DNA of 42,964 bases, taken from NCBI GenBank assembly GCA_012522575.1, contig JAAYKE010000004.1, positions 1 to 42,964 of the forward strand, read 5' to 3'. This document shows, piece after piece, positions 38,892-42,334 of this stretch (positions within the stretch are counted from its first letter, which is position 1; each line of letters begins with the position of its first letter). The DNA is from Armatimonadota bacterium (lineage in GTDB: Bacteria > Armatimonadota > UBA5829). A program made the position numbers and the translations under genes. The notes below the pieces were generated by a model that ran no database searches, was not told where the DNA came from, and saw only the letters and a list, made by a program, of their open reading frames with translations.

Positions 38892-39155
38892 ATGAGGCTC
38901 AGTGAATATGATATTTGCGACTTGCACGCAAGACTAGGCTTGGGATTGAGCTTCACACGTTTGATCTGGTTGGTTAATTTTCTCGCAATTATCTTAAGCG
39001 TATGGTGTCATCGCTACGACATCACACTTCTTGCAATCTTCACCTGGCTATGTTCACTGGTGGCCAGCGCCATCATCCACAAGGCTTGCCATTCACTGGA
39101 AGCCGACAAACACCCCGCCCAAACTCCTGCCGAAGAACACAGCGAAGCGTTCTAG
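38892..39155 (+). CDS. small membrane protein, two helices
   Basis: An 87-residue protein with an N-terminal amphipathic region, two hydrophobic segments (LIWLVNFLAIILSVW and LLAIFTWLCSLVASAII) and a short polar tail. No family recognised. GGAGGA lies 11 bases before ATG 38892. Its end overlaps the stop of the convergent carB gene by four bases. Confidence 0.55.
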   Translation: MRLSEYDICDLHARLGLGLSFTRLIWLVNFLAIILSVWCHRYDITLLAIFTWLCSLVASAIIHKACHSLEADKHPAQTPAEEHSEAF

Positions 39156-42100
39156 TGTGTTTGTTCCAGTTCCTGAATACTGTAAACCTCGGTCTCGTGG
39201 TCTGCTGCAACTCTCAATCCGTTTATAGTCGCCTTGGCTCCGGCTATTGTCGTAATAATCGGTATTCCGCCTGCTACTACGGCGCTTCGTATGGCTACCT
39301 CGTGTTTTCGAGGCCGTTTCCCGCTCGGAGTATTGATAATAAGGGCTAGTTCATTGTTTTTAACCAGGTCAGTTGCGTCGGGTCGCCCCTCCCCAATCTT
39401 GGATATGGTCCTGGTTTTCACGCCTTTTTTGCGGATCAACTCAGCCGTTCCGCGTGTAGCTGCAATCTCAAATCCGAGCGCATTCAAGCTGGCCGCCACC
39501 TCTCCGATATCGGTCTTATCCGGGTTGGCCACGCTTACAAATACCGTCCCGCTGTGGGTCAAATTTTGACCTGCGGCGATCTCCGCTTTCATATATGCAT
39601 TGCCAAAATCAGCGTTGGCTCCCATTACCGCGCCGGTCGATTTCATCTCAGGACCTAACACTACATCTACTCCGGCAAAACGAGCGAACGGGAAAACCGC
39701 TTCCCTGACAGAGACCTGCCTAGGCGCAATATCCTGAGTGATCCCCTGCTCCTCAAGAGACCTGCCAAGCATAACCCTAGTCGCAACCATAGACCAGTCA
39801 ACTCCCACTGCTTTGCTGACAAATGGGATTGTCAATGAAGCGGCTGGATATGCCTGCAACACGTATATCCTGTCCTGCTTGACAGCAAAGTGGATGTTTA
39901 TAAATCCGCGTATGTTAAGCCTGGTTGCCAGCGATCGCGACTGCCTGCGGATATCATCAATCACTTCCTCGGTAAGGCTGAAATGTGGCAACGAGGCCGC
40001 GCTGTCGCCGGAATGCACGCCTGCCTGTTCAATGCGCTCCATCAATCCACATATCACAGCCTGCTTGCCGTCACAAATCACATCAGCATCAACGCCGACT
40101 GCATCTTCAAGAAACTTTTCTATGATCACCGGATAATCGGATGCGGATCGCGGGTCGGCCTGGTAATACTCATTTAGATCGGCGTCGTCATATATTATCT
40201 CTATTGCTCTGCGGCACGAACTCTCCGCAGGTTGCGCCAAAACAGGGTAGCCGATGCTTGCAGCAAAGGAAAGCGCGTCGTCGATGGATGTCACCACGGC
40301 TCTAGCGGTCTGCGTCAAGCCCAACTCCTTCATTATATCGCTCAATATCTCCGGGCTGACGGCATCACTCAAATCCTCAACGGATGTTCCCAATACACGA
40401 ACTCCCGCAGCGTCAAGCGTCTTGCTCAGGTCTAAAGCACTCTGACCGCCCATCTGAACGATCACACCCATCGGATTCTCATAGCCGATTACTTCGAGAA
40501 CATCTTCTGCGGTCAAGGGTTCGATGTAGAGGCTGTCACACAAGCCGAGGTCTGTGGAAAACGCCTGTGGATTGCAATTGATTACGATGGAAGAACAGCC
40601 TGCATCGTTGAGAGCCGCTATCGAATGGGCGCAGCAATAATCAAAGCCCATACCCTGGCCTACGCGATTTGGCCCGCCTGTGAGGATAAGAATCTTATTT
40701 GATGCGCTCTGAGAATCAGAAGATTGGATGTTTGAGTAGGTCGAAAAAAATGCCCTGCCGGAATTTACTGCACCAAAGCGCGGTTTGATGCCCAATACAT
40801 TTCGTCGTAGTCGCACCTGGTCCTCAGTCGTCTCCAACAAATACGCCAACTGGACATCGGAATAGCCATGTGTTTTGGCCTCATTGAGCGTCGCCGCTGA
40901 TATGCTGACGAGTGACTGGCCGGAGAGCTTTGTCTCAAATTCTATGAGTTCGCGGATGTTGCCAATAATCCAGCGGTCAATCCCGCTACAGGCGTTGATG
41001 TCCGCATCGGCCATGCCATACTCCAAAGCTCGACGCAAATGAAAAAGCCTGGCCGGGTTCGGTTGTGCGAGCTTCGAGCGAATCGCGCCTGTATCGGCGA
41101 CATCATTGGCAGTTTCCATACCGTCTGATCCAAGTCCCCAGCGACCGTTCCCCAGGGACCTGATTCCCTTTTGCAGGGCTTCTTTGAAGCTGCTCCCGAA
41201 AGCGATCACTTCGCCAATGGATTTCATCGAGGTATCCAGCGTATCGTCGGCATCGGCAAATTTTTCAAAGTCAAAGCGTGGCAGCCTTATGCAGAAATAA
41301 TTATTAGATGGAGCGAAATTCTTTGCCTCGGATATCTCATCTATGTTAAGTCCCGCAGCCAGCAGAGAGGCAATTTTGCTAATCGGCAAGCCGGTGATCT
41401 TCTCAGCAAGAGCCGAGCAACGTGATGCGCCCGGATGAGCGCCCAATATGACCGCATCTCCCTGCGCAGAATCCACCGCAAACATTATGCTCAGCTCACC
41501 TATTACGCCGACTGCATCCGCGACCTCCCTTGCAAGCTTATCCAGATTAGCCATCTGAGGTTCGGAAAGTGTCTGCACCGGGGAGATAGTGATCGAATCG
41601 CCACCGTGTATCCCAAGAGGATCGAGACGCTCCATACTCGCAATCGAAAGCACTGAGCCGCTGCAATCCCTTATAACTACATACTCGATACCTTTACAAT
41701 GCAGCATTGGCTTTTCGATCAATGCCTGATGAATGGGACTCGTCTCCAGGGCGACGGAGAGCATGCGCATATACTCTTCTCTATTGTAGGCAATTGCACT
41801 ACCCGCGCCAGCAAGCGAATATGATGGCCTCAGAATTGCCGGAAAACCGAGATCATCAATTATTTTCATTCCTTCATCAATAGATCCTGCGACTCCACTT
41901 TGGGGAACCGGCAGCCCGGACTGAGCCATCGTCTCCTTAAAAAGCCTTCTGTCCTCGCATTTTGCTATTGTTTTGTCGTCAGATCCGATCATCTCAACTC
42001 CAAAACGAGAAAGCGCGCCATTGCGTTGCAGTTGCATGCTCAAATGCATGGCTACAGTCCCGCTTGCGCTTGCAAATAGCGCGCAGGGAGCTTCTTTTTC

Positions 42101-42334
42101 GATAATCTGCACGATAGATGCGGAAGTCAGAGGCTCGATGTATGTTCGGTTGGCTGCCTTAATATCGGTGAGGTGTGCGTCAGGGTTCGAATCCACCGCA
42201 ACGACTTCATAGCCTATATCCATCAAAGTCTTTGAAGCAATGGTTGCGGCACAGTCGGACTGTCCTGCCTGGCCGATTATCACCGGCCCGCCGCCTATGA
42301 TCATAATTTTCTGAATATCCGTTCTTTTAGGCAT
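39152..42334 (-). CDS. carbamoyl-phosphate synthase large-chain homologue with degenerate active sites
   Basis: A full-length 1060-residue CarB homologue: two ATP-grasp halves and a C-terminal MGS-like regulatory domain (about 930-1060, INTPSGKRPR). The fold motifs MPKRTDI, GGPNRVGQG, EQAGVHSGDS and GPEMKSTG are retained. However, the metal-binding motif of the first half, EMNPR in E. coli, reads GAHPG (~297), with NVQFAV as SIMFAV. In the second half EVNPR reads QAYPA (~823), NVQFAV reads NIHFAV, and RPSYVLGG reads QPAESSCR. Both sites thus seem unable to bind Mg-ATP normally. The frame is intact with no stops. No carA or pyr gene is adjacent. It is probably a non-catalytic paralogue or one with a changed role. 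Confidence 0.85.
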   Translation of the reverse strand: MPKRTDIQKIMIIGGGPVIIGQAGQSDCAATIASKTLMDIGYEVVAVDSNPDAHLTDIKAANRTYIEPLTSASIVQIIEKEAPCALFASASGTVAMHLSMQLQRNGALSRFGVEMIGSDDKTIAKCEDRRLFKETMAQSGLPVPQSGVAGSIDEGMKIIDDLGFPAILRPSYSLAGAGSAIAYNREEYMRMLSVALETSPIHQALIEKPMLHCKGIEYVVIRDCSGSVLSIASMERLDPLGIHGGDSITISPVQTLSEPQMANLDKLAREVADAVGVIGELSIMFAVDSAQGDAVILGAHPGASRCSALAEKITGLPISKIASLLAAGLNIDEISEAKNFAPSNNYFCIRLPRFDFEKFADADDTLDTSMKSIGEVIAFGSSFKEALQKGIRSLGNGRWGLGSDGMETANDVADTGAIRSKLAQPNPARLFHLRRALEYGMADADINACSGIDRWIIGNIRELIEFETKLSGQSLVSISAATLNEAKTHGYSDVQLAYLLETTEDQVRLRRNVLGIKPRFGAVNSGRAFFSTYSNIQSSDSQSASNKILILTGGPNRVGQGMGFDYCCAHSIAALNDAGCSSIVINCNPQAFSTDLGLCDSLYIEPLTAEDVLEVIGYENPMGVIVQMGGQSALDLSKTLDAAGVRVLGTSVEDLSDAVSPEILSDIMKELGLTQTARAVVTSIDDALSFAASIGYPVLAQPAESSCRRAIEIIYDDADLNEYYQADPRSASDYPVIIEKFLEDAVGVDADVICDGKQAVICGLMERIEQAGVHSGDSAASLPHFSLTEEVIDDIRRQSRSLATRLNIRGFINIHFAVKQDRIYVLQAYPAASLTIPFVSKAVGVDWSMVATRVMLGRSLEEQGITQDIAPRQVSVREAVFPFARFAGVDVVLGPEMKSTGAVMGANADFGNAYMKAEIAAGQNLTHSGTVFVSVANPDKTDIGEVAASLNALGFEIAATRGTAELIRKKGVKTRTISKIGEGRPDATDLVKNNELALIINTPSGKRPRKHEVAIRSAVVAGGIPIITTIAGAKATINGLRVAADHETEVYSIQELEQTH

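Follow-up and report, generated by a model that had tools for sequence, protein, structure and literature searches.

A Full-Length CarB Homolog with Decayed ATP-Grasp Sites and a Conserved Allosteric Domain in a Family of Armatimonadota

Introduction

Carbamoyl-phosphate synthase (CPS) is a textbook allosteric enzyme, and the locus examined here raises the question of why a bacterium of the Armatimonadota keeps a full-length homolog of its large subunit, CarB, in which the metal-binding motifs of both ATP-grasp sites are destroyed. The gene lies in a 42,964-nucleotide stretch of DNA (the window), which corresponds to contig C166 of assembly G000 (3.06 Mb in 189 contigs; rated 100% complete). 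The original prediction for this gene was that selection maintains it for an altered function or one without catalysis, possibly that of a ligand sensor or a scaffold. Here, its product was compared with Escherichia coli CarB and its lineage was followed through the 15 genomes of this uncultured family, all of which are metagenome assemblies, so that the evidence presented is sequence evidence.

Results

Both ATP-grasp sites of the window protein are damaged

The gene, designated pseudo-carB (39152..42334, minus strand), is the last large gene of the window and runs from an ATG through 1060 codons to its stop with no internal stop, as had been predicted. The alignment of its product with E. 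coli CarB (1bxr_A residues 1-1069, E 5e-263) spans the full length, and every CarB domain was found by Pfam (CPSase_L_D1/D2/D3 and MGS): two preATP-grasp/ATP-grasp halves, the oligomerization domain, and the allosteric MGS domain (residues ~923-1060, 39155..39568, minus strand; E 1e-18) follow one another in CarB order. In domain order, length, and MGS effector-site residues, the protein is like E. coli CarB (PDB 1bxr/1jdb; PRK05294, TIGR01369); unlike it, the protein lacks the metal ligands of both ATP-grasp sites, and its gene has no adjacent CarA gene.

Residue mapping onto E. coli CarB reproduced exactly the motif replacements read from the original sequence. At site 1, Met284 (codon 41483..41485, minus strand) stands at the position of the metal ligand Gln285, and GAHPG (residues 298-302; 41429..41443, minus strand) replaces the EMNPR that contains E299 and N301; the changes Q285M, E299G, N301H, and R303G remove all metal ligands, and G175A, E208K, and E215G are further losses. 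At site 2, His815 (codon 39890..39892, minus strand) occupies the position of the metal ligand Gln829, and QAYPA (residues 827-831; 39842..39856, minus strand) replaces the EVNPR that contains E841 and N843, again with all metal ligands exchanged (Q829H, E841Q, N843Y), together with R845A. The damage here reaches well past the metal ligands, with most other ATP-binding residues lost as well (R675P, R715Q, G721C, G722R, E761G, R848L). The pocket residues R129, R169, and H243 are still present. The protein nevertheless scores 1093 bits against NCBIfam PRK05294 (cut-off 599), under which it would be named carbamoyl-phosphate synthase, and 977 bits against TIGR01369, just below the cut-off of 1027. 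An AlphaFold2 prediction made from seven sequences had a mean pLDDT of 54, and no structural claim was built on it.

The predicted absence of a neighboring carA holds on both sides: the upstream flank, which extends to the contig end (42335..42964) and is where carA-II sits beside intact CarB-II in relatives, contains no carA, and the 206-aa ORF downstream is not CarA either. Contamination or misbinning of the window was rejected in view of its similar composition and of the gene order around pseudo-carB, which is the same in the same-genus genome G001.

A separate CPS with intact sites is encoded in the same genome

Contig C82 of the window genome carries carA together with an ordinary carB (carB-I) that has intact EVNPR motifs in both halves, a second carAB of the kind that the original prediction had proposed looking for. 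Thus, pseudo-carB is not the only CarB gene of this genome, a finding that removes one ground on which the prediction could have failed. The CarA adjoining CarB-I is the only CarA found in the genome by a PF00988 search, and CarA-II is absent. Both PyrB and ArgF are present in the window genome and in nearly all genomes of the family, indicating that carbamoyl phosphate is needed, and in most relatives PyrB is encoded on the same contig as carAB-I. Carbamate kinase, an alternative source of carbamoyl phosphate, was not found above the arcC cut-off in any genome. The carB-I of the window genome stops at an in-frame TAG within the MGS domain (L007:4561-4563); homologous MGS sequence continues in frame past it, CarB-I of G001 is full length, and the TAG is either a recent mutation or an assembly error.

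Pseudo-CarB belongs to a second CarB lineage that decayed once

A second CarB lineage, CarB-II, which includes the window gene, was found in all 15 genomes of the family. Its members are closer to the window protein (39-58% identity) than the CarB-I of their genomes is, and they form one clade separate from CarB-I (support 100/100). In seven genomes (G003, G007, G010, G013, G005, G009, G012), CarB-II is intact wherever the assembly covers the catalytic residues, and carA-II is adjacent. The other eight (G000, G001, G002, G004, G006, G008, G011, G014) have a degenerate CarB-II and no CarA-II that could be found in the genome. Since the eight degenerate copies constitute a single clade (99.8/98), the decay represents one event rather than eight, and the link between the loss of CarA-II and the decay of CarB-II likewise counts as one event. 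The copy in G002 looks, from its residues, like an intermediate: site 1 retains E299 and N301 (with Q285K), and site 2 has lost R675, the glycine loop, E761, and R845.

The original prediction envisaged homologs sharing GAHPG and QAYPA, but these are not common motifs, as different catalytic residues are gone in each lineage. The site-1 replacements vary among the degenerate lineages (G/H, S/Q, D/D, S/N, N/D, and E/S), and the site-2 glycine loop is deleted in three degenerate copies. That the lost residues differ by lineage points to a lost constraint on catalysis rather than to a shared new active site.

In the genomes sampled from neighboring families of the same order, only CarB-I was found, with no CarB-II. 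When 84,980 species genomes were scanned with a DNA pattern derived from the CarB-II MGS domain, nine contigs matched, all from family members; the matched metagenome-assembled genomes are labeled Armatimonadota/Armatimonadetes or 'Abditibacteriota', have the rumen of yak and goat and the sediment of Lake Pavin among their sources, and appear to be identical with genomes of the family. Searching genome contigs with the window protein alone returned no relative, and viral contigs contained none either. Two further loci are recorded here as separate observations. G013 (L091, G013:C55) is placed in genus g4, yet its intact carA-II/carB-II pair groups near genus g3; the genome has two near-identical CarB-I copies and a reported contamination of 6%, and the oddity reflects either transfer or contamination in a mixed bin. 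In another Armatimonadota class member (L105:4285-10942, G020:C40), a single carA is followed by two tandem carB genes, each of which has intact metal motifs.

No gene neighbor that might hint at a partner is conserved beside pseudo-carB across genera, and pseudo-carB is not part of a pyr cluster. In three genomes of genus g4 (L076:4771-12790, L083:5883-13843, and L094:5011-13026), pseudo-carB lies between sugar-type ABC permease and rhamnosidase-like genes, all on one strand, with a spacing of 13 bp to the rhamnosidase-like gene.

Degenerate copies are under purifying selection

The two degenerate copies closest to each other (G004/G008; 1042 codons) have an omega of 0.114 (dN 0.102, dS 0.90) under a pairwise codon model, with omega = 1 rejected (LRT 539), and the NG86 estimate was 0.102; CarB-I of the same two genomes has an omega of 0.030. 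The G000/G001 pair gave an omega of 0.065 (LRT 460) with saturated dS, as it is in the other pairs, so that the precise dN/dS comes from the one close pair. The dN/dS check proposed with the original prediction therefore came out in its favor. The catalytic domains of the degenerate copies have an omega of about 0.12 and are also under purifying selection; hence, the MGS domain is not the sole part that matters.

Open reading frames tell the same story. In 500 neutral simulations at 0.5 substitutions per site, the ORF acquired a mean of 26 stops and a minimum of 6, and six of the eight degenerate copies, from five genera, are uninterrupted and full length. The remaining two are the G001 copy, cut by contig ends, and the G014 copy, in which a supposed frameshift was rejected because the break falls on scaffold N bases; clear disruption was found in none of the eight. 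Judged by these sequences, the degenerate copies do not qualify as ordinary pseudogenes.

Constraint has shifted to the MGS domain

The MGS domain is among the fastest-evolving domains in CarB-I and in intact CarB-II, and this order is reversed in the degenerate clade, where it is the sole domain not accelerated. When branch-length sums on a fixed topology were compared between degenerate and intact CarB-II, the six catalytic subdomains had ratios of 6.1, 4.4, 9.8, 11.0, 6.6, and 5.3, whereas the ratio was 2.2 in the oligomerization domain and 0.97 in MGS; thus, the least accelerated domains are those for effector binding and subunit contact. Relative to CarB-I, the rates of the degenerate clade were 1.12 for MGS and 1.65-9.8 for the other domains. 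Separate branch lengths for MGS and the rest of the protein gave an LR of 224 (df 22), versus 32-38 for random splits, and the bootstrapped distance ratio was 0.78 (0.60-0.99) for MGS and 4.06 (3.5-4.6) for the rest. In the G004/G008 pair, MGS has an omega of 0.044 and a dS that is not reduced (1.17 vs 0.97), indicating that conservation acts at the protein level; an artifact of nucleotide constraint was rejected on the same grounds. Invariant columns among the eight degenerate copies make up 41% of MGS and 11-22% of the comparable catalytic and oligomerization domains.

The residues of the UMP/IMP site (K954, T974, T977, K993, and N1015 in E. coli numbering) and those on the ornithine side (E783, D791, E892, and T1042) are kept in all eight degenerate copies, in line with the conserved MGS domain originally noted in the window protein. 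Of these, K954, T974, N1015, E783, D791, and E892 are effector contacts in the E. coli structures. T1017, S1026, Y1040, and D1041 differ from E. coli, with the same changes in intact CarB-II apart from variation at T1017. According to a review (PMC6245113), the MGS/regulatory domain of CPS is where IMP, UMP, and ornithine bind, and both the binding of UMP and its inhibitory effect depend crucially on T977 and K993.

Glutaminase residues are missing from CarA-II and from CarA-I of the window genus

In all seven genomes that carry CarA-II, always beside an intact CarB-II, this subunit lacks the glutaminase residues Cys269 and His353 (L074:11054-12070, L081:10728-11720, L086:2696-3721, L091:10749-11801, L078:11229-12200, L085:11424-12401, and L090:7188-8150). 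No CPS other than the CarA-II/CarB-II pair was found in genus g5, and no arcC was above the cut-off. Both residues have also been lost from CarA-I in the window genus, being replaced by Gly and Glu in G000 (L007:379-1437) and by Gly and Gln in G001 (L070:8174-9217); between these two genomes, CarA-I is 60% and CarB-I 89% identical. Human CPS1 has Ser at the position of the glutaminase Cys (PMC4655335), and by analogy a CPS with a glutaminase-dead CarA should be ammonia-dependent. The only site-intact CPS of the window genus is therefore predicted to use free ammonia, which ammonia-rich rumen and digester-type habitats would fit.

Discussion

The results suggest that the window protein is very probably dead as a CPS and, at the same time, under selection. 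It can probably be regarded as a pseudoenzyme, unable to make carbamoyl phosphate, that is kept for its MGS effector domain and overall fold, and a role centered on effector binding by MGS appears likely. Decay of the catalytic sites combined with preservation of the effector domain suggests an enzyme turned regulator, and the concentration of constraint on the ligand-binding MGS domain favors reading it as a sensor or regulator. That selection favors an altered or non-catalytic role, as originally proposed, is thus supported by the intact CarB-I in the same genome, the omega of 0.11, and this concentration of constraint.

In the history envisaged here, the family ancestor would have had the usual carAB-I in a pyrimidine gene cluster together with a second pair, carA-II/carB-II, whose CarA-II, devoid of glutaminase, would have made it an ammonia-type synthase. 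One branch would then have lost carA-II, and its CarB-II would have been retained as a protein although the two ATP-grasp sites decayed. The MGS domain of pseudo-CarB may still bind UMP, IMP, or a similar nucleotide, and the effector-bound state may be relayed by way of the MGS and oligomerization domains to a partner, for which CarB-I is the most plausible candidate. Action on CarB-I is put forward only tentatively. The same caution applies to the fuller scenario of a detachable allosteric subunit, which might sense UMP/IMP (or ornithine), hetero-oligomerize with CarB-I, and regulate a CPS that is predicted to be ammonia-dependent in the window genus. CPS forms dimers via regulatory domains and tetramers via oligomerization domains (PMC6245113); however, oligomerization of the E. 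coli enzyme reportedly has no effect on the regulation of activity (PMC6245113), which counts against the proposed mechanism, as do the effector-site positions that differ from E. coli and the lack of a partner gene conserved beside pseudo-carB across genera.

The MGS rates and residues would be equally expected if pseudo-CarB were a free-standing sensor or scaffold that does not act on CarB-I, relaying a nucleotide signal from MGS to some other process or organizing a cluster of pyrimidine or arginine enzymes, and the position of the gene outside the pyr cluster with no conserved neighbor accords with such a role. This appears rather unlikely, given that the protein has no output domain beyond CarB's own and that the MGS domain has one obvious function, the control of CarB, and no other that is known. 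A slowly decaying relic, made redundant by the loss of CarA-II and constrained only by the harm that a misfolded or interfering protein would do, would account for the strongly accelerated catalytic domains, the lineage-specific loss of catalytic residues, and the gene neighborhoods that differ between genera; it is nonetheless improbable in view of the full-length ORFs in six genomes from five genera (the other two being broken only at contig ends or N runs), the LRT of 539 against omega = 1, and an MGS domain without excess rate and with a dN/dS of 0.04, which misfolding avoidance does not predict. Reuse of the ATP-grasp scaffold as a new enzyme, with another substrate or nucleotide chemistry and a different metal arrangement, is compatible with purifying selection over the whole protein, catalytic domains included, and with the persisting pocket residues but is very improbable, as conservation would be expected of a new active site and the degenerate copies share no new set of acidic ligands, vary by lineage at the replaced positions, and in three cases lack the site-2 glycine loop.

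The preferred reading, a pseudoenzyme kept for its effector domain, has parallels in known systems. In trypanosomes, the AdoMetDC prozyme is a dead paralogue that regulates its live counterpart by hetero-oligomerization (PMC5201418). As in that case, the genome keeps a dead paralogue in addition to an active one; the enzyme is a different one, and partner and effect are conjectural for the window protein. The ammonia-dependent human CPS1 (PMC4655335), with its inactive glutaminase domain and MGS regulator, resembles the CarA-II/CarB-II lineage from which the window gene derives, where an intact CarB is paired with a CarA that lacks the catalytic Cys and His. However, CPS1 combines a dead glutaminase with a live synthase, whereas the window gene encodes a dead synthase that no longer has a CarA partner. 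No paper describing a CarB pseudoenzyme was found in a literature search that left out most subscription journals.

Genes that pass the PRK05294 equivalog model and are named carbamoyl-phosphate synthase can thus be catalytically dead, which matters for the reconstruction of pathways from metagenomes. Within this family of Armatimonadota, pseudo-CarB appears to be a natural domain-separation experiment in which catalysis has been removed and the effector domain kept. The lineage may offer a natural system in which to study the conversion of a metabolic enzyme into a regulator, with intermediates remaining: G002 retains most of site 1, and other genera have lost both sites.
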